DNA of 61,589 bases, from contig DAHUZI010000133.1 of assembly GCA_027306595.1 (NCBI GenBank), forward strand, positions 1 through 61,589, written 5' to 3'. How positions within the stretch are numbered: position 1 is the stretch's first letter; each line of letters opens with the position of its first letter. The translations under genes and the position numbers were made by a program. Of this stretch, positions 1,440-15,028 are shown piece by piece. This DNA is from Candidatus Dormiibacterota bacterium (GTDB taxonomy: Bacteria; Chloroflexota; Dormibacteria; Aeolococcales; Bog-877). Under the pieces are notes generated by a model that saw only the letters and a list, made by a program, of their open reading frames with translations, did no database searches and was not told the DNA's origin.

Positions 1440-1732
1440 GCTTCGCATTCGACCGCGACCGCTTCGCTGCGGCACTCCTCGCTCGGGGCCTCGGGCACGC
1501 CGACGTCGCCCGCCTGGCTGGGATCGCCACCTCGACCGTGGCGGCAGCCGCCTCCGGCCGGCCGGTCGCACCCGGAACGGCCCGGCGCCTCGCGGCCGCC
1601 CTGGCCAAGACCCCTGAGCTGGAGCTGATGGCGACGCTCGTCGGCCCGGCCACAAACGGCGAAGCCACCGCCCCTCAAGCGGTGGCTTCGCACATGGAGG
1701 CGCTCAGTGCACGAGCCGCTCCACGCGCATAG
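1436..1732 (+). CDS. Xre/Cro-CI-like helix-turn-helix regulator
   Basis: Protein ...RGLGHADVARLAGIATSTVAAAASGRPVAPGTARRLAAAL... is a Xre-type HTH pattern. Confidence 0.65.
   Translation: MSFAFDRDRFAAALLARGLGHADVARLAGIATSTVAAAASGRPVAPGTARRLAAALAKTPELELMATLVGPATNGEATAPQAVASHMEALSARAAPRA
1659..1691 (+). promoter_or_regulatory. Perfect 13-bp hairpin immediately upstream of the Rep ribosome-binding site
   Basis: GCGAAGCCACCGC-CCCTCAA-GCGGTGGCTTCGC, 4 nt before GGAGG (1696-1700) and the GTG start at 1707. Confidence 0.6.
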
Positions 1733-4112
1733 CATAGCGGACCCCGCGCAGACGGGCAGGGGGCCGCGGTCCAGCGCCGCCCTATATCGCCGTCTCGCGG
1801 GCACTCTGGCCCGCGGCTTCCTCAACGGGAACCAGGCGCACCTGGGGCTGATCGCTAACGCGACCCGCCGCCTGGCGGGGCTCGGCCTGGGCGGCGATGA
1901 GACGGCAGGCGCCGTGATCCGGGCCATATCGGAAATCCTGAAGGATGGGGGGCCCTTCACGGAGGAGGAGCTCTCCCGGCGTTCGAACGTCGACCACAAG
2001 AGGCTCGCGCGCCTGCGCCGGAACGGGCGCGAGATGGGCGCGCTCGAGCCGCTTGTCGAGGAGGTCCTCGCGCGGGCCACGCGGACCATCCCGGTGCCAA
2101 GGGTCGCTGGGTCGACCCCGCGGACAGCTGGCGGACGCGATGCGGCGAGTGACCTGGTCGCCCTGGCCCGAGCCGATGGCGTCGAGACGTTTACTTATCA
2201 GGGGGACCCGTACGTCAGCCTGCACGTGAATGGGCACGTCGAGACGCACCCGTTGGGGCTAAGGAGCCCGGCCCTCCGTGACTACCTCCTGCGGCTGTAC
2301 CGGTCGCGCCACGCCCGCTTGCCGGGGAGGGAAGCGGTCGCGGGGGCTGTGGAGGCGCTCGCCGCGGATGCCCGCTGTGGCGAAGTGGAGCACGCCGTGT
2401 TCCTGCGCGTCGGCGCTCTCCCGGATGGCCGCATCGCGATCGACCGCGGTGATGCCAGCTGGACCGCGATCGTGGTCGGGGCGGCTGGCTGGGAGGTGGT
2501 CCCTCACCCGGTCCGGTTCCGCCGACCACGCTCACTTCTGAGCCTGCCGATGCCGGAGGGTGGGGGCTCGATCGATGAGCTTTGGGCCTTCCTCAACTTG
2601 GGCTCGCCCTCGGACCGCTATCTCGTCATGGTGTGGCTGGTGGCGGCGCTGCGCCCGGTCGGCCCGTATGGGGTGCTGCTCTTCCACGGGGAGGCGGGCA
2701 CAGCCAAGAGCACGGCCACGAAGATCTGCCGATCGCTTGTGGACCCCTCAACGGCGCCGATGCGCCACCTGCCAAAGGACATCCGCGACCTTTTCGTCGC
2801 GGCGCGCGCGAACCGGTGCCTGGCGTTCGACAACGTGAGCGCGATCCCGCGCGAGACGAGCGATGCGATCTGCCAGATCGCCTCCGGCGGCGGCTACGCC
2901 ACGCGCGAGCTCTACTCCGATAACGACGAGGTCGTTCTCACTGCCCAGCGACCGGTGATCATCACGTCAGTCGAGGAGGTGGCACGCTCGGGCGACCTCC
3001 TCGAGCGCTCCCTCCTGGTCGAGCTGCACCCGATCTCACCGGAGAATCGCCGAACAGAGAAGCGCCTCTGGCGGGACTTCGAGCAGGCGCGCCCAAGGCT
3101 GCTTGGCTCGCTCTTGGACCTTGTCGCGAGCACCGAGCGCGAGCTGCCAGGGGTCGAGATCGCAGCGCCGCCGAGGATGGCCGACTTCGCGGAACTCGGG
3201 GTAGCGGTCGAGCGAGCCAAGGGATGGCCTGATGGGGCCTTCCTTAGGGCGCTCGAGGGGAGCGCCCTTGAGGCGGCCGATACGGCACTCGGCGGGTACC
3301 CCATCGTCCCGACCCTCGTGAAGTTCGCCAGCGAGGTCGACAGGAGAGAGCCCCCGGCATGGGTCGGATCCGCGGCTGAGCTCCTCGACGAGCTCACTAG
3401 CCTCTCGGGGAAGGGTCCCGAGGATCTCCGCCGCCTCCGTGACTGGCCCCCGAACCCAGGCTGGCTCGGCCGTCAGCTCGTCCGGATCGGACCCGACCTT
3501 CGGAAGGTCCACGGGGTGGACCTTCAGTCGGTGCGGCGAAGCCGAGATGCGAAGCGCTGGAGAGTCGCGCGCGTAAAGGGGGGGAATTTGCTGGCACTGC
3601 CGGCACTGCCGGCACCTTCGACTTCAAATGCTGCCGTTTCGGGTGCCGGCAAGGGGTCTCCGGGTGCCGGCAAGGGGTCTCCGGTGCCGGCAACGGTGCC
3701 GCCTTCGACCGGAGCCCCTGGCAGCGATCGGCTGGCAACGAGTGCCGGCAGTGCCGGCAGTGTGCCGGCATTCGCGGCGCTTGCCGGCACCCCTGATGCT
3801 CATCTTTCTGATCTCTTACCCGGTGCGGGTGCCGGCAGTGCCGGCATTTTCCCCTCTTTTGGGGAGAAAGAGGAAGAAGGGAACGGCTACCAGAGCCTGA
3901 AGCTCACAGCCTCCGAAGCGGAAGAGGGGGTCGGCGCAGCTCTGGTGGCCGCCGAGTCGATCGAGGACCTGAACCAGATCGTGATCGAGTTCCAGGAGAC
4001 GATCGTCGCGCTCCCGCTCGGTGCGCGGCGGCGGGTGCGCGCCGTCTACCTCGCCCACCGCGATCGGCTCGTTGGCCGTGCGGCGGCTGGCGGCCCGGAC
4101 GTGACCCCGTGA
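1707..4112 (+). CDS. Rep/helicase-like P-loop ATPase (phage/ICE replication protein type)
   Basis: 801 aa; Walker A GEAGTAKST in LLFHGEAGTAKSTATKICRSLVDP, followed by RCLAFDNVS and SLLVELHPI motifs as in SF3-like replication proteins; SD GGAGG 6 nt before GTG. Confidence 0.7.
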   Translation: MHEPLHAHSIADPAQTGRGPRSSAALYRRLAGTLARGFLNGNQAHLGLIANATRRLAGLGLGGDETAGAVIRAISEILKDGGPFTEEELSRRSNVDHKRLARLRRNGREMGALEPLVEEVLARATRTIPVPRVAGSTPRTAGGRDAASDLVALARADGVETFTYQGDPYVSLHVNGHVETHPLGLRSPALRDYLLRLYRSRHARLPGREAVAGAVEALAADARCGEVEHAVFLRVGALPDGRIAIDRGDASWTAIVVGAAGWEVVPHPVRFRRPRSLLSLPMPEGGGSIDELWAFLNLGSPSDRYLVMVWLVAALRPVGPYGVLLFHGEAGTAKSTATKICRSLVDPSTAPMRHLPKDIRDLFVAARANRCLAFDNVSAIPRETSDAICQIASGGGYATRELYSDNDEVVLTAQRPVIITSVEEVARSGDLLERSLLVELHPISPENRRTEKRLWRDFEQARPRLLGSLLDLVASTERELPGVEIAAPPRMADFAELGVAVERAKGWPDGAFLRALEGSALEAADTALGGYPIVPTLVKFASEVDRREPPAWVGSAAELLDELTSLSGKGPEDLRRLRDWPPNPGWLGRQLVRIGPDLRKVHGVDLQSVRRSRDAKRWRVARVKGGNLLALPALPAPSTSNAAVSGAGKGSPGAGKGSPVPATVPPSTGAPGSDRLATSAGSAGSVPAFAALAGTPDAHLSDLLPGAGAGSAGIFPSFGEKEEEGNGYQSLKLTASEAEEGVGAALVAAESIEDLNQIVIEFQETIVALPLGARRRVRAVYLAHRDRLVGRAAAGGPDVTP
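3598..3846. repeat. Iteron-like cluster: 11 copies of palindrome TGCCGGCA
   Basis: Exact copies start at 3598, 3607, 3644, 3665, 3685, 3743, 3752, 3763, 3782, 3830, 3839; three adjacent pairs are exactly 9 bp apart. Confidence 0.85.
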
Positions 4113-4741
4113 TCTCCGCGACGCCGGCAGCCCCGAGCTACGTGCTGGTCGACCACCCTGCCTACGTCCGGGACCGCCGCGCCCGGAGAGCGGCGCTCCT
4201 CACGATCCGCCGCCAGGTCCGGCGCCCCGGGGTCTACGACTGGACGTGGCATCACGATGCCGGCCGCGCGTGCTGCCGGCGGGAGGCGCCGTCCATCACG
4301 GCGCAGTGGATCGTGGCCCAGCTCCGGCTCGATGGGGTGTGGGCCCGGGCCGCCCTGGTGAGGGGCGATTCGCTGGCGGCCAGCGCCCTCCGGTCGGCAG
4401 GCGGCGCGGTCGGCGTCGTGGGAGGGCCGGTCGGCGAGTCGCTGGGTCGGATCGCGCTCGCCGTCGCCGGGGGCGCCATCGAATGCTGCCCCCATCTGGG
4501 GGTGGGCGACGAGTTCCGGGCCGTGTGGCTTCGCGACCTCGACCGGGCCCGGTGCGCCGGCTGCCACGCCGGCCGCACCCGAGCGATCGTCGGCACGCCC
4601 GAGGGCTCGACGTGTGACGGCTGCCGCCGGGCGGCGGAGGTGCTGCGGCCGTTCGTGATGATGGCCGGACCGCTGACGGTCTTCGGCGACATCTGCGAGA
4701 GGTGCTCGGGGGGATCGCGCGTCACGGTGATCGTCGAGTGA
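4109..4741 (+). CDS. CxxC-rich hypothetical protein
   Basis: 210 aa with CAGC, CDGC and CERC motifs; GTGA overlap with the Rep stop. Confidence 0.6.
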   Translation: MISATPAAPSYVLVDHPAYVRDRRARRAALLTIRRQVRRPGVYDWTWHHDAGRACCRREAPSITAQWIVAQLRLDGVWARAALVRGDSLAASALRSAGGAVGVVGGPVGESLGRIALAVAGGAIECCPHLGVGDEFRAVWLRDLDRARCAGCHAGRTRAIVGTPEGSTCDGCRRAAEVLRPFVMMAGPLTVFGDICERCSGGSRVTVIVE

Positions 4742-5539: not shown

Positions 5540-5989
5540 ATGACCACCACCACCAGCGCCACGATTGAGCGGGCGCGCGCGTACCTGCGCAACCTCGACC
5601 CGGGCCGCACGATGGACGCGGCCGAGCTCCGCCGGCGGGTGGGGCGACAGTTCCCCGCGCTCTGGCCCAAACTCACGCCCTCCTTGCAGGCTGCCTGGGC
5701 CTGGCGCCAGGCCCACGGCCGGACCCCAGAGCTGGCGTGGCGCGAGCCCAGCCGCCCTCCTGACAGCGGACTCTTCGACGGCGTCCGGGTCCCGCGGGAG
5801 GAACGGACGCGGGCCCAGGCGGTGCACGCGCTCGAGGCTCGGCTGCGGGCGCGGCAGCGGCACCTCGCCGCCGCTCAGCGCGAGGCCGCGCGAACCAGGG
5901 CACTGGCCGCGTGGTGGCGGGCGGCGCACGGCGACCGGCTCGAGCTCCCCCTCGACCTCGCCGAGGAGGCGTGGTATGGGCACCGTTGA
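5540..5989 (+). CDS. hypothetical protein (MTTTTSATIERARAYLRNLDPGRTMDAAELRRRVG...)
   Basis: SD GGGAGG 5 nt before ATG; overlaps resolvase start by 14 nt. Confidence 0.5.
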   Translation: MTTTTSATIERARAYLRNLDPGRTMDAAELRRRVGRQFPALWPKLTPSLQAAWAWRQAHGRTPELAWREPSRPPDSGLFDGVRVPREERTRAQAVHALEARLRARQRHLAAAQREAARTRALAAWWRAAHGDRLELPLDLAEEAWYGHR

Positions 5990-6605
5990 GGCGCCGGCGC
6001 CCCGGGCTGCGCTGTGGCTTCGGGTCTCGACCGCGGAGCAGGTGGCCGCGAACCAGGAGCCGGCCCTGCGGGCCCTCGCCGAGCGCCGAGGCTGGGCGGT
6101 CGGCCCCGTCTACCGGCTCGAGGAGTCGGCGTTCGCGGGTGGCGAGGCGTACCGGCGGGCGGTGACCCAGCTGGTCCGCGACGGCCGGCTGGGGCGGTTC
6201 ACGGTGCTCCTAGTGTGGGCCCTCGACCGGCTCTCCCGGGAGGGACCGCTGGCCACCCTGGGGCTGGTGGACCAGCTGGCCCGCGCCGGCGTCACGGTCG
6301 TCTCGGCTCAGGAGCCGTGGACCGAGGCGCCCGGCGAGCTCCGGGAGCTGCTCCTCGCCATCGTCGCCTGGGTGGCGCGCCAGGAGTCGGCGCGTCGGTC
6401 GGAGCGGGTCCGCGCCGGGCTGGCGCGGGCCCGGGCCGCAGGAACGCGGCTGGGGCGACCGCCGGGGAGCCGGGACGGCCACCAGCGCCGGCGGTCGGGG
6501 TACTTCGCGCGGTGGGCCCGGGTCCGGGAGGACGGCCCTAAACAATCCCCAGGGCGGGAAGAGCCCTCCGCGGATCTCGGCCCGGGCACCCCCGGCGCGG
6601 GGTGA
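5976..6605 (+). CDS. Serine recombinase/resolvase family protein
   Basis: Catalytic-domain motifs LRVSTAEQ, ...LLVWALDRLSREG..., EQ/ER helix region and C-terminal RAGLARARAAGTRLGRPPGSRD. Confidence 0.85.
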   Translation: MGTVEAPAPRAALWLRVSTAEQVAANQEPALRALAERRGWAVGPVYRLEESAFAGGEAYRRAVTQLVRDGRLGRFTVLLVWALDRLSREGPLATLGLVDQLARAGVTVVSAQEPWTEAPGELRELLLAIVAWVARQESARRSERVRAGLARARAAGTRLGRPPGSRDGHQRRRSGYFARWARVREDGPKQSPGREEPSADLGPGTPGAG

Positions 6606-7794: not shown

Positions 7795-7902
7795 ATGGCC
7801 GTGCCACTGTCGACCGCGCAGCTGGAGGCGGTGGGGACCGCCGCGGGCGGACGCCCGCCCGTGGTCCTGTTTGTCGCCTTTGGCGGCTGGCGGCAACGGT
7901 AG
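7795..7902 (+). CDS. 35-aa small ORF (MAVPLSTAQLEAVGTAAGGRPPVVLFVAFGGWRQR)
   Basis: Stop overlaps the GTG start of the downstream lysin-like gene (TAGTG). Confidence 0.35.
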   Translation: MAVPLSTAQLEAVGTAAGGRPPVVLFVAFGGWRQR

Positions 7903-8891
7903 TGGCCAGCCAGACCCAGATCGCGGACTTCCGCACCAAGTACCTACCCTGGGCGGCGAAGGCGTCGCGGTCCACCGGGCTCAACCAGTGGACGATCCTC
8001 AGCCAGTGGGCGAACGAGACCAACTACGGGACCCAGTTCGCCCGGCCCAACAACATCGGCAACATTGGCGTCTACCCGGGCGGTCCCAACCCCGCCTACG
8101 CCAGCGTCGGCGCCGGGGTGAAGGCGTACGAATCCTTCATCACCTCCTCCACCGCTCCGGGGATGGCCGCCCTGCGCGCGACCCGCGGGCAGAGCATCGC
8201 TGAGCAGTTCCGCGCGCTCGGGAACTCCGCCTACGCGGGCAGCCACTACAACAGCGGCGGCGGCCCTGGCTCCGCCCTGGCCGGCGTCCTGGCCGCCCTC
8301 AATCCGACCGTGAGCCCGGGCGCGGCGAGCAGTCCGCCGGGCGCTGGGGTCCAGCTCCCCACGACGATCCGGCTGGCAGGGCCGGCCGTTGTGAGCTGGT
8401 TCGAGCACCTCACGGCAGCCCAGCAGCGCGCGGCCTCTGACCTCTCGCTCCCGAAGGGGTCGCACGTGCTGAGCGTGAAGTGGCCGGGGCTGAGGTCGAC
8501 GACTGCGGAGATCACCTACCTCACGGCCGCCGGCAAGAAGGTCACCACGGAGTTCCTGACCGTCCCGCCCGGCAGCGTGAACCTGAAGGGTGCAAAGAAT
8601 CCGCTGTGGGGACCGACCCCAACACAGACGACGGGCGCCGCGCACAAGGCAGCCAAGACGGCGGGGAACATCGCGGGTGCGGTAGGGGCCCTGGTCAGCT
8701 TCCTCACCGAGTTCGCCGGCGGACTCACCCTTGAGCGTGTCGGGATGGCGCTACTCGCCTTCGCCATGGTCGCAGGGGGCCTTCTGCTCCTGGTGACGGG
8801 GAGCCAGTCAAAGTCGCTCGGCCGCAGCCTGCAGCCGGCGGACGCCGCGGCGAGCGGCGCGCAGTCCGCCGCGGCCGCCCTAGCCGACTGA
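7902..8891 (+). CDS. Glucosaminidase/lysozyme-like protein with C-terminal TM segment
   Basis: STGLNQWTILSQWANETNYGT...NNIGNIGVYPGG...YESFITSS domain; C-terminal MALLAFAMVAGGLLLLVTG hydrophobic helix. Confidence 0.6.
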   Translation: MASQTQIADFRTKYLPWAAKASRSTGLNQWTILSQWANETNYGTQFARPNNIGNIGVYPGGPNPAYASVGAGVKAYESFITSSTAPGMAALRATRGQSIAEQFRALGNSAYAGSHYNSGGGPGSALAGVLAALNPTVSPGAASSPPGAGVQLPTTIRLAGPAVVSWFEHLTAAQQRAASDLSLPKGSHVLSVKWPGLRSTTAEITYLTAAGKKVTTEFLTVPPGSVNLKGAKNPLWGPTPTQTTGAAHKAAKTAGNIAGAVGALVSFLTEFAGGLTLERVGMALLAFAMVAGGLLLLVTGSQSKSLGRSLQPADAAASGAQSAAAALAD

Positions 8892-9357: not shown

Positions 9358-9490
9358 GCAGCGCACCCGGCGCCTCGCCACGGGCGTCGGGGTCACGCCG
9401 GCGCCCGCCCCGACGCTCAGTGGCGTCGACGCTCGACGGGACAGCCGCCAGATCGCGTCCTGACCCAGCTGGGTCCCCTATCCGCTGCCT

Positions 9491-9850
9491 CCAGCACCCT
9501 CGCGCGCCGCCACGGCCCGCACAGGGGCGATATATCGCCTTCATGGGTTCCGCCGAGGAACCCGAAGGCGCTGATCCGGTGGCCCAGGGGGTTGACGTCG
9601 CGGCCGGGTCGGTCACCCCCTACTCGGTCGCCCCTGCGCCTGGGTCGCCCGGCTGCACGCCGCGGCCAGCCGCCGCTGCCACGGGCTCGCCGGCGCCGGG
9701 GCTGCCCCCGGCGGTCGGTGTCCACGCCGCCCGACTGGCGTCCGGCCCTCCCCCTCCCTGGGGACCACCGCCAGCCCGGTCCGACGAGACCACCGGTGGG
9801 TACCCTGGCGGTCGGCGTCTCCGCAGGAGTCGGCGGCGCGGCGGTGGGGC
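9491..9850. repeat. Direct repeat copy 1 (about 360 bp, partner 10794-11153)
   Basis: Ungapped alignment at offset +1303; contains palindrome GGCGATATATCGCC at 9526-9539. Confidence 0.85.
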
Positions 9851-10288: not shown

Positions 10289-10404
10289 GTGACGGTCGTG
10301 ACGGTCGGTGACGGTCGGCCGCCCTCCGACCGTCACACCGGAATCCCCATCTTTGGAACTCGCCCCCGGGGGTCTGGAGGGGGTCAGTGACGGTCGTGAC
10401 GGTC
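10289..10404. repeat. Second iteron-like cluster: 6 copies of GTGACGGTC (5 direct, 1 inverted)
   Basis: Copies at 10289, 10298, 10308, 10328 (inverted, GACCGTCAC), 10387, 10396; two pairs exactly 9 bp apart. Confidence 0.85.
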
Positions 10405-10409
10405 GTTTC

Positions 10410-10793
10410 CCCTCTATAGAGGGAAGGAGGAGGAAGGAGAAGAGAGCCCAGGGCACTTCAGTACACCGCTCGCGCCGGACGTCCTTGCGCGCGGGATGGT
10501 CGCCTGGATCTCGGCGCCGGGTCCCCCGAGGCCTTCCGGAGGGTGACGGCCGAGATCCCCACCCAGCTCGGCGAGCTCGCGCCCGTCGCGCCGCGGCGGG
10601 TGCGCGCCGTCGAGCTCACCCACCGCGGCCGGCTCCTCGGCAGCGGGGTGGTCGACGGGTTGGGCATGGCCCCGTGCCCCCCGCCACCCCGACATTCCAG
10701 ACCCGCGTCGTGGTCGACCACCGTGCCTGCCTCCGGGACCGCCGCGTCCAGAGAGCGGCGCTCCTCGCGATCCGCCGTCAGGTTCGGCGACCC
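10410..10793 (+). pseudogene. Decayed copy of the Rep C-terminus and start of the following CxxC gene
   Basis: RRVRAVELTHRGRLLG matches RRVRAVYLAHRDRLVG of 1707..4112; VVVDHRACLRDRRVQRAALLAIRRQVRR matches VLVDHPAYVRDRRARRAALLTIRRQVRR of 4109..4741, with the same relative frame shift. Confidence 0.8.
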
Positions 10794-11153
10794 CCAGCAC
10801 CCCCGCGCGCCGCCACGGCCCGCACAGTGGCGATATATCGCCCCCATGGGGTCCGCCGAGAAACCCGAAGGCGCTGATCCGGTGGCCCAGGGGGTTGACG
10901 TCGCGGCCGGGTTGGTCACCCCCTACCCGGTCGCCCCTACGCCTGGGTCGCCCAGCTCCACGCCGCGGCGAGCCGCCGCCGCCACGGGCTCGCCGGCGCC
11001 GGCGCCGACCCCGGCGGTCGGTGCCCACGCTGGCCGACCGGCGTCCGGCCCTCTCCCTCCGTGGGGACCATCCCCAGCCCGGTCCGACGGGACCACCGGT
11101 GGGCGGCCTGGCGGTCGGCGTCTCCGCAGTAGACGGCGTCGCGGCGGCGGTCG
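10794..11153. repeat. Direct repeat copy 2 (about 360 bp, partner 9491-9850)
   Basis: Ungapped alignment at offset 1303; palindrome GGCGATATATCGCC at 10829-10842. Confidence 0.85.
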
Positions 11154-12091: not shown

Positions 12092-12425
12092 GGCAGCGTC
12101 GCGGGATGGGCGCGAGGCACCCCAGCGCGTCGTCCGTGTCGCCGTGGTCCAGGAGGAAGGTCCGCGGCGCGGGCCAGGGCCGCTCGGGGGCCGCTCCGTC
12201 GAGCAGATCCTCGACCTCCGGGTGGACCACGCTGGCGAAGATGGCCAGGCCGCCGACCGGCTCCGGCACCGTCTCGGCCCATCCCCGCCCGCACCGCCGG
12301 CAGGTCCGCGCCACCAGCTCCGGGCCCGGGACCGCCTCCACGTCGGGGTAGTCGCAGGTCGGGCACCGGCTCCAAGGGTCGAAGGGCTCAGGCGGGTCGA
12401 CCAGCTGGGCCTGGACCGCACTCAC
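11880..12425 (-). CDS. zinc-ribbon hypothetical protein
   Basis: CPTCDYPDVEAVPGPELVARTCRRCGRGW; 4-nt overlap with the start-side integrase gene; 3' end overlaps 11270..12091 antisense. Confidence 0.4.
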   Translation of the reverse strand: MSAVQAQLVDPPEPFDPWSRCPTCDYPDVEAVPGPELVARTCRRCGRGWAETVPEPVGGLAIFASVVHPEVEDLLDGAAPERPWPAPRTFLLDHGDTDDALGCLAPIPRRCLRAGPGASPGTGPSAPAWATKASVGHGRPGGAPPSRPAPAPGTGGSLAAESSGPGSDRRGGFPRRASGSR

Positions 12426-13576
12426 GGCCTCACCCCCGGCCTCTGGTGGTTGGCCGATCCGAGGCTGAGCGGGGCGATGGCCGCGCGCAGCTCGTCAAGC
12501 GCCAGGTGGTCGAGGTACCGCTGGGTGTGGGTGAGGCTGGAGTGGCCGAGCAGCTGCATGACCGCAACAGGGGAGGCCCCGGCCCGCAAGTTCCGTATGG
12601 CGTACGTGTGTCGCAGCGAGTGCGGCGAGATCCGCTTGGTGACCCCCGCCGCCGAGAGCCACCCGCGCAGTCGGCAGCTGATCCCAGCCGGAGTGAGGCG
12701 GCCTCGGGGATGCGCCCGGTCCCGCCTCAGGAACAGCGGACCCGAACTCTGGAGCGTCCGACCGTCCGCTGCGAGCATCGCGAGCATGGCGTCGCCCACT
12801 TCGGCGCGAACGGGAACCACTCGGTCCTTGGCGCCCTTGCCCTGGCGGACGTGCAGGGCCACGCCGCCGGCGCCGTCGCCCACGATGTCGGCGACGTCGA
12901 GGTGGCTCAGCTCACCGACGCGGAGGCCACTCCCGAGCGCGACCATCGCCAGCGCCAGATCGGCGGGTCCGCGGGCCTGCGCTGCGGCCAGGACCGCCGC
13001 CAGCTCCGGCGCGTCGAGGGCGGAATAGGGGCGGATGACGGTCGCTTTCGGCACGCGCAGAACCTCGTCGACGATGTCCCGGCCCAGCTGGTGGGCGCCG
13101 ATCGCCCGCGTCCACTTCAGGCAGGCCCGGACCGCGTGGATCGCGCTGGCGCGGCTCCCGGGCGCGAGGTGCGCCTGCGCCAGGACGTGGCCGCGGTAGT
13201 GAGCGAGCAGCTCGCCACTGAGCATCCCGAAGGCCGGCACCTCGACGAAGGCGAAGAAGGCCCGGAGGTGGCGACCGTAGACGCGCCGGGTCGCCGGCGA
13301 CTCGACCCGGCTGTCGAGCCACGCGTCGACCACCCGCGTCCACGGAAGGGTGGCGGCAGGGGGGATCGGCGGCACCGGGGTCAGGGCCTCGACCAGGTCG
13401 GCGATGTCCTGCCCCGCGGGCGGCCTCGCCGTGACGGCCGTACTCAGCCAGGCGGGCATGGGCGATCCGGACCCGGGCGGGGGCGCCTGGCTCACCGCCC
13501 CCACCGATCCGCTCACGGCTTCGCCCCGGCGGCGGTCAACGGCCGCAGCCGCGAGCGGAGGCCCGGTGCGGCCCAC
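12422..13576 (-). CDS. Tyrosine recombinase/integrase 1
   Basis: GSGLRVGELSHLDVADI, HSLRHTYAIRNLRAGASPVAVMQLLGHSSLTHTQRYLDHL catalytic boxes. Confidence 0.9.
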   Translation of the reverse strand: MGRTGPPLAAAAVDRRRGEAVSGSVGAVSQAPPPGSGSPMPAWLSTAVTARPPAGQDIADLVEALTPVPPIPPAATLPWTRVVDAWLDSRVESPATRRVYGRHLRAFFAFVEVPAFGMLSGELLAHYRGHVLAQAHLAPGSRASAIHAVRACLKWTRAIGAHQLGRDIVDEVLRVPKATVIRPYSALDAPELAAVLAAAQARGPADLALAMVALGSGLRVGELSHLDVADIVGDGAGGVALHVRQGKGAKDRVVPVRAEVGDAMLAMLAADGRTLQSSGPLFLRRDRAHPRGRLTPAGISCRLRGWLSAAGVTKRISPHSLRHTYAIRNLRAGASPVAVMQLLGHSSLTHTQRYLDHLALDELRAAIAPLSLGSANHQRPGVRP

Positions 13577-13733
13577 GTGAGAGGGGGCCGGACCGCCCCG
13601 GCGGCGCGGGAGGGGGGCGCCCCGCTTAGCCAGCGCGCCGCGGGCGCCGTCAGGATCGCGTCGGCCAGCGGGTCCGAGCGCCAGGTCAGGGGATGGCGAA
13701 GCACGGTCTCCTCCTCACAACCGCTGCGGGTGA

Positions 13734-14708
13734 TCAGCGCCCCCCGTCATCCGCGCGCAGGGCGTCCATGAGGGCGCGGTGGGCATCGGTCGGGGTCAGG
13801 TGGGCGTAGGTGCGCTGGATCATCTGCAGGGACGAGTGGCCGAGGACCTGCGCCACCAGGAGCGGGTTCATGCCGCGCTGGAGCAGGTATGTGGCGGCCG
13901 AATGGCGAAAGAGGTGGGGGTGCACTCGCCGGCCGATCTCGGCCCGCAGCCCGAGGTCCCGCACCAGCTGACCGACGCCGGATTCGGTCAGGGCGTGGCG
14001 CTCGCCAGCGGGATCGCGACGGCGCGCCGTGAACAGCCGATCAGTCACCACGTCGGCGCCCCCCGGGATCTGCCCAAAGCGTCGCAGGCGTCGCGCGAGG
14101 GCCGGGGCGAGCGGCACCAGCCGATCGCGGTTCCCCTTCCCGTGGACGAGCATGTACGTCTCGCGGTCCCGCTGCACCAGGTCGTCGAGCCGAAAGCGCA
14201 CCAGCTCTCCGACCCGGACGCCTGTGTCCGCCAGCACGCGCACGATCAGCTTGTCCCGTTCGTCTCGCGCCGCTCCCTCGAGCCGCTGGACCTCCTCTCG
14301 GCTCAACACGTCGACCACGCGCCGGCCCAGCCGCGGGAGCCGGACGTCCCCCTCGACTCGTTCCCCCTCGGCCCGCAGCCAGGCCAGGAGGCCTCGGACC
14401 GCCTTCACGTAGGTCCAGATCGACGACTCGCTGAGCGGGCCCCGGGCGCCGCCCGCGGTGCGGAGATGCGCGGCATAGCGCTCGAGGACGCGACTCGACA
14501 GCCCCGCGAGGTCGGTCAGACCCTCCCGCTCCGCCCAGGGGAGAAAGACCGAACGGAGCGGGTAGCCGTAGCTGAGGGTCACCGTCTTGGGCGAAAGGCC
14601 ACGGGCCTGGCAGGCGGTCAGGTAGTCCTCGACCGCCTGGCCGAGCGGCGCAGGGCGACCCCGGGCGGACTTGGCCGAGGGCGACCGGGAAGAGGAGTTC
14701 CTGCGCAA
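13734..14708 (-). CDS. Tyrosine recombinase/integrase 2 (XerD-like), adjacent to tRNA-Thr
   Basis: TGVRVGELVRFRLDDL, HPHLFRHSAATYLLQRGMNPLLVAQVLGHSSLQMIQRTYAHL. Confidence 0.92.
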   Translation of the reverse strand: MRRNSSSRSPSAKSARGRPAPLGQAVEDYLTACQARGLSPKTVTLSYGYPLRSVFLPWAEREGLTDLAGLSSRVLERYAAHLRTAGGARGPLSESSIWTYVKAVRGLLAWLRAEGERVEGDVRLPRLGRRVVDVLSREEVQRLEGAARDERDKLIVRVLADTGVRVGELVRFRLDDLVQRDRETYMLVHGKGNRDRLVPLAPALARRLRRFGQIPGGADVVTDRLFTARRRDPAGERHALTESGVGQLVRDLGLRAEIGRRVHPHLFRHSAATYLLQRGMNPLLVAQVLGHSSLQMIQRTYAHLTPTDAHRALMDALRADDGGR

Positions 14709-14869
14709 CGACTCTCACCTGGGTTGGGGACTATCCCGCTGTGTTAGAGCGTTACCATACCACATCTGTCCAGGAGTCCCCAGAACTCCCCAACGCCCGC
14801 CGCTCGTCGCCATCCATTCACGACTGTGAGATCGAAAAGATGGGAACGGCGCATCTCGGGGAAGGCCCG

Positions 14870-14941
14870 AGCCCAGACCGGGATTTGAACCCGGGACCCC
14901 TTCCTTACCAAGGAAGTGCTCTGCCACTGAGCTATCTGGGC
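14870..14941 (-). tRNA. tRNA-Thr(GGT)
   Basis: GCCCAGA acceptor, CTTCC-TTGGTAA-GGAAG anticodon arm, CCGGG-TTCAAAT-CCCGG T arm. Confidence 0.95.
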
Positions 14942-14945
14942 GTGG

Positions 14946-15028
14946 TGGGCGGGAGAGGATTCGAACCCCTGTAGGCGTACGCCTGCTGATCTACAGTCAG
15001 CCCCGTTTGACCACTTCGGTACCCGCCC
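14946..15028 (-). tRNA. tRNA-Tyr(GTA)
   Basis: GGGCGGG acceptor, GACTGTAGATC anticodon arm, long variable arm, AGGGG-TTCGAAT-CCTCT. Confidence 0.95.

Follow-up and report, generated by a model that had tools for sequence, protein, structure and literature searches.

The window analysed here, a 61.6-kb stretch of DNA from the 2.6-Mb genome of a Chloroflexota bacterium, contains a gene for an initiator-like protein, Rep (1707-4112, plus strand). The open reading frame begins with GTG, encodes 801 amino acids, and has homologs in plasmids, genomes and viral contigs. Its start is overlapped by an upstream gene on the same strand (1436-1732) for a small HTH protein of the HTH_31/XRE-like type, possibly a regulator; the match to Pfam HTH_31 (E = 3.7e-4) falls below the curated cut-off.

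Rep matches no family in Pfam, NCBIfam or PHROG, and a sequence search of solved structures returns only Walker-A cross-hits to ABC transporters. Its architecture emerges instead from an AlphaFold2 model built from 44 homologs. An SF3-type helicase core with the Walker A motif GEAGTAKS occupies residues ~282-545 (2550-3341; alignments A1-A3; pLDDT mostly >90). It is followed by a winged helix at residues ~552-622 (3360-3572), modelled with a helix at 584-602 and strands at 604-609 and 617-622, then by a disordered linker (residues 638-731, pLDDT <50) and a C-terminal helical domain (residues ~735-793; 3909-4085; mean pLDDT ~90). No Prim-Pol domain was detected in this protein. Foldseek matches the model to the primase-helicase Rep of SaPI5, the C-terminal region (CTR) of NrS-1 and poxvirus D5/E5; the match to SaPI5 Rep (PDB 7ola; E = 1e-7, TM 0.54 on the target) places Rep among proteins with an SF3/D5-type fold. 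We also considered a RepAM/AICE identity and rejected it, as DUF3631 is absent and no Pfam family is matched.

Within rep, between the regions coding for the winged helix and the C-terminal helical domain, lies a dense array of one octamer. A reading of this DNA made earlier from sequence only had listed 11 exact copies of TGCCGGCA, with starts from 3598 to 3839 and three pairs spaced by exactly 9 bp; all of these are present as described. That reading overlooked a twelfth site, TGCTGGCA at 3589, which differs by one mismatch and turns the first pair into a triplet with 9-bp steps (3589, 3598 and 3607; left group, 3589-3614). Three sites at 3644, 3665 and 3685 (3644-3692) follow at steps of 21 and 20 bp, then four at 3743, 3752, 3763 and 3782 (3743-3789) and a right-hand pair, again with a 9-bp step, at 3830 and 3839 (3830-3846). 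The full series of spacings is 9, 9, 37, 21, 20, 58, 9, 11, 19, 48 and 9 bp.

Could such a cluster arise by chance in GC-rich DNA? The whole window holds the 11 array copies of TGCCGGCA and one other; shuffled windows hold 2.2 on average and never reached 12 in 100 shuffles. Under an order-5 Markov model ~0.006 copies would be expected per 249 bp, against 11 observed. Across the 2.6-Mb genome the word occurs 98 times, compared with 88 for the reversed control word, and outside the array its frequency is about one per 30 kb. Shuffles, genome count and Markov model agree that the word is not equally dense elsewhere. No 8-mer in the window is more clustered, and the overlapping GCCGGCAC equals it. 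All 11 occurrences of GCCGGC between 3500 and 3950 are part of TGCCGGCA, as against 12 of 230 across the window. The same array is hard to find elsewhere: 66 viral contigs contain a 9-bp-spaced pair of the word, and only one of them has four copies in 300 bp.

The array encodes Rep residues 628-714, nearly all inside the disordered linker, which is of low complexity. The 11 exact sites fall in two codon phases (four in one, seven in the other), which indicates that the DNA is repeated and not the peptide. TGCCGGCA is a perfect palindrome. The word therefore cannot encode orientation, and any direction would have to come from spacing or grouping.

Immediately to the right of the array lies an inverted repeat, TTTTCCCCTC...GGGGAG, with a polypurine tract (3846-3879). 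The sequence-only reading had described an AT-rich unwinding tract here. The tract is present, with slightly shifted coordinates (ATTTTCCCC...GAAG spans 3846-3879), and is 56% A+T (19 of 34 positions) against 25% for the window. As an unwinding element, however, it is a weak candidate: the array regions of 65 homologous loci show only a slight dip in G+C. An AT-rich tract is thus unsupported as a trait of the family, and it appears to be the weakest part of the case for an origin.

A second, degraded copy of this region lies at 10.3 kb. At 10290-10404 are six exact copies of another word, GACCGTCA (TGACGGTC), with 9-10-bp steps within groups. They are followed by the palindrome TTTCCCCTCT..AGGG and a polypurine tract (10406-10440), the counterpart of 3846-3879; with up to one mismatch allowed, these two places are the only sites of the palindrome and tract in the genome. 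The coding 3' end of rep, on the side of the C-terminal helical domain, is still recognisable together with the start of the next gene (10568-10793, plus strand; 78% identical to 4003-4228), and the frame is broken across the array. To judge from these matches, the 10.3-kb copy is what remains of a related element whose iteron, at the corresponding position, was a different one. Its word is of the ACCGTCA type common among Rep homologs, which makes the live palindrome the unusual one.

The surroundings resemble those of a mobile element. On either side of the relic is a direct duplication of 300 bp (9481-9780 and 10784-11083, 91% identical), and 10124-10199 matches 13916-13991, a part of an integrase gene, at 88% identity; the region thus looks like stacked element remnants. 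Two adjoining tyrosine integrase genes (12422-14708, minus strand) stand beside genes for tRNA-Thr and tRNA-Tyr (14869-15028), an arrangement that suggests an integrated element. No att repeat of at least 14 bp was found near the tRNA genes within the window, whose contig ends at position 1, so the element may be immobile. The same region codes for a serine resolvase N-terminal domain (~5983-6605, plus strand; Pfam E = 3e-26), in an open reading frame with a longer, probably spurious start, and for a glucosaminidase-like (lysozyme-type) protein (7902-8891) with a weak Pfam match below the curated cut-off.

Homologs of Rep are widely scattered. A single-protein search of 100 genomes related to the host found none, real homologs in the phylum being confined to more distant members. 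Plasmid homologs occur in Streptomyces (including pFP11), Methanothrix, Chlorohelix, Methylobacterium and Stanieria, unnamed and annotated as 'ATP-binding' or 'hypothetical'; further homologous loci, from genomes as well as viral contigs, represent many phyla. No Pfam family covers their shared core, and their N-terminal modules differ (Prim-Pol, Toprim/DnaG zinc finger or NrS-1 HBD).

Do these relatives carry arrays, and where? For each homologous locus we identified the strongest cluster of octamers within ~9 kb and kept it if it beat 15 Markov simulations. Measured from the end of the winged helix, 29 of 36 significant arrays in genome loci are centred between -30 and +330 bp (1.7 expected), as are 13 of 16 viral ones (0.8 expected); the interval was chosen after an initial look at the data, and the excess is far beyond what that choice could produce. 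When exact octamers are strictly required, about half of the homologous loci show no array, and the Methylobacterium and Stanieria plasmids have none. The array is therefore not universal. Where it occurs, comparison of homologous rep genes bears out what the earlier reading proposed to check: arrays with 9-bp steps are kept at the same position while the amino acids of the linker vary.

Most arrays share the coding location. Among 47 examined, 33 lie wholly inside the open reading frame, eight partly so and six just past the stop codon, and 29 of the 33 wholly intragenic arrays use more than one codon phase. In most of these wholly intragenic cases the frame ends ~30 residues or less after the last iteron; the window Rep is among the few that continue past the array into a folded domain. 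Two others, L107 (2314-4827) and L109 (2819-5404, minus strand), continue into a PolA-like 3'-5' exonuclease domain (Pfam match in L107), as though a single polypeptide combined initiator-helicase and DNA polymerase, linked across the origin. The tails of several homologs (L125, L137, L144, L149, L164 and others) show tripeptide repeats behind the winged helix, such as GSSGSSGSS, RSERSER and LSTLST. These repeats are the protein shadow of iterons spaced by 9 bp, and could act as a text signature for such origins.

The sites are also ordered. Steps between sites of the same orientation are exactly 9 bp in 107 of 205 cases, and every one of the 44 non-palindromic arrays with five or more sites has sites on both strands. 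Sixteen of 43 arrays start with the pattern >>> and 20 of 43 finish with <<<. The outermost sites converge in 25 arrays, diverge in six and are parallel in 13, an inward-facing layout that was scored on the same loci that defined the motifs and amounts to a tendency rather than a rule. On the archaeal plasmid pH6Ac (Methanothrix) there are intragenic ACCGCCTCC and GGAGTACATGGAG repeats behind the winged helix, flanking a purine-rich stretch (L068:4327-4600), and a second array of six copies of CGAGCAAAGTTC upstream of rep (942-1013). The Chlorohelix plasmid, like pFP11, has its array just 3' of rep.

What changes from locus to locus is the word. A CGTC core recurs in 30 of 44 loci, within AGCGTCAC, ACCGTCCG, CCGTCACC, ATCGTCCG and others, and nearly all of these iterons, unlike that of the window, are not palindromic. 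Does the word follow the protein? With helicase distance removed, loci that differ more in the winged helix also differ more in their iterons (partial r 0.23, permutation p 5e-4, n = 44); shared ancestry is only partly controlled in this test, and the effect is modest. When Rep is divided into 16 overlapping blocks of 50 residues, the two blocks with the strongest partial correlation to iteron type are 542-591 and 582-626, the winged helix. This domain is probably the one that reads the iterons. One Chloroflexota genome has three related Reps (L107, L108 and L109), whose words are CAGCGTCAC, ACCGTCCGC and ACCGTCAGCA. Different words in related elements of one genome would fit co-resident replicons that avoid cross-recognition.

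Several known systems resemble parts of this arrangement. In the Rep/ori systems of staphylococcal pathogenicity islands (SaPI) and in SCCmec Cch2, a helicase of the same SF3/D5-type fold has a C-terminal DNA-binding domain that recognises iterons located where the gene encoding it ends, on the 3' side. SaPI5 Rep is among the top structural matches of the window Rep. By analogy, the best reading of the window array is that it would work like SaPI Rep/ori. A putative origin lies directly downstream of the SaPI5 rep gene (PMC7581432). The SaPI origins are outside the gene, whereas the window array is inside the open reading frame and is followed by a folded C-terminal domain; the two proteins share only ~10% sequence identity, and iteron words and hosts differ. 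Closer in sequence is Rep of Streptomyces pFP11 (35% identity over the helicase; tblastn 2e-46; alignment A1). Its array, with the word AGGGACGCAC, is likewise associated with rep but lies ~550 bp 3' of the gene, outside the frame, and a primase-polymerase is encoded next door, unlike in the window. RepA proteins of the Streptomyces theta plasmids pFP1 and pFP11 have been reported to bind their iterons (PMC3583192).

The primase-polymerase-helicases of pRN1 (ORF904) and phage NrS-1 also combine an SF3 helicase with a C-terminal DNA-binding part; the NrS-1 CTR is the one matched structurally by Rep, and the NrS-1 HBD domain occurs in one Rep homolog. In pRN1 the region just 3' of the gene for the SF3/winged-helix initiator is essential (PMC4234260), but the origin is a stem-loop without iterons. 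Phage lambda, like the window, has its iterons partway through the initiator gene, in the middle of O (ori-lambda; PMC3985674). Lambda O, however, is an unrelated protein and not a helicase, and its iterons are four of 19 bp. Origins inside initiator genes are also found on Streptomyces linear plasmids such as pSLA2. Origins within initiator genes (lambda O) and iterons just 3' of SF3-type reps (SaPI, pFP11) are therefore already known. In the open-access literature that we searched, we found no description of an origin in the coding tail of such Reps, of its spread across phyla, of the recurring 9-bp layout or of a link between winged helix and iteron. To our knowledge, the family-wide coding location and layout are new, as is the palindromic iteron in the window.

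An iteron array kept at the same spot across phyla, with different words, marks a putative Rep-binding start of copying. We consider it likely that a replication origin lies inside the linker-coding part of rep, with the array at 3589-3846 as the iteron field to which Rep binds. The origin proposed by the sequence-only reading draws its decisive support from the conserved position of arrays in homologous reps, while its unwinding element stays doubtful. We infer the following course of events. The winged helix of the window Rep would bind each 8-bp word, and binding at 9-bp steps within groups would nucleate Rep oligomers. Two helicase rings would then form on the array and open the DNA, admitting a primase and the host replisome, and replication would probably run both ways.

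Could the array instead be an operator, at which Rep or the upstream HTH protein represses transcription or sets copy number, with the true origin elsewhere? The HTH gene overlaps the start of rep, and the iterons of many plasmids act in control as well. Although distant from the rep promoter, the array could block elongation. But in phylum after phylum arrays stay at the 3' end of rep, repeats in that position serve as origins in SaPIs, the bipolar layout of ~200-250 bp is larger than a typical operator, and iteron type follows the winged helix of Rep; we regard an operator as unlikely. A role in partition or incompatibility, or in conjugative transfer as a clt/TRS-type site read as 8-bp repeats by an FtsK-like TraB, is more improbable still. 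Sites of the clt type also hold short repeats and may overlap a gene, as in pWTY27 (PMC3583192), but the genes scanned between 1 and 14.7 kb include no FtsK/TraB or ParA domain, arrays accompany rep across hosts from many phyla, and palindromic words are poorly suited to a directional translocase. That the words are a by-product of the peptide, created by slippage or codon bias without any function in DNA, is barely credible and already largely refuted: the linker is indeed disordered and of low complexity and some repeats resemble tandem duplications (GAGKGSPGAGKGSP), but sites occupy two codon phases here and more than one in 29 of the 33 arrays that are wholly intragenic, lie after the stop codon in other homologs, and use both strands in every non-palindromic array of at least five sites.

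Returning to the array as origin, we can state a broader hypothesis, to which we give about even weight for and against. Reps of the SF3-helicase/winged-helix kind, in numerous bacterial phyla and on at least one plasmid of an archaeon, would carry their origin inside the tail of rep. Groups of sites with 9-bp steps, often facing inward, would load two helicase rings, and words and winged helix would diversify together, giving compatible replicons able to share one genome.

Origins have been mapped for only a few such Reps. The arrays offer a route, from sequence only, to both the origin and the binding word of the initiator for many unnamed bacterial and archaeal replicons, and with the natural panel of paired winged helices and iterons, the code by which a helicase-type initiator reads DNA can be put to a direct test. 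The layout is also relevant to the loading of two helicase rings in simple replicons. The window array itself would be a clean case in which one stretch of DNA is both protein code and predicted origin.
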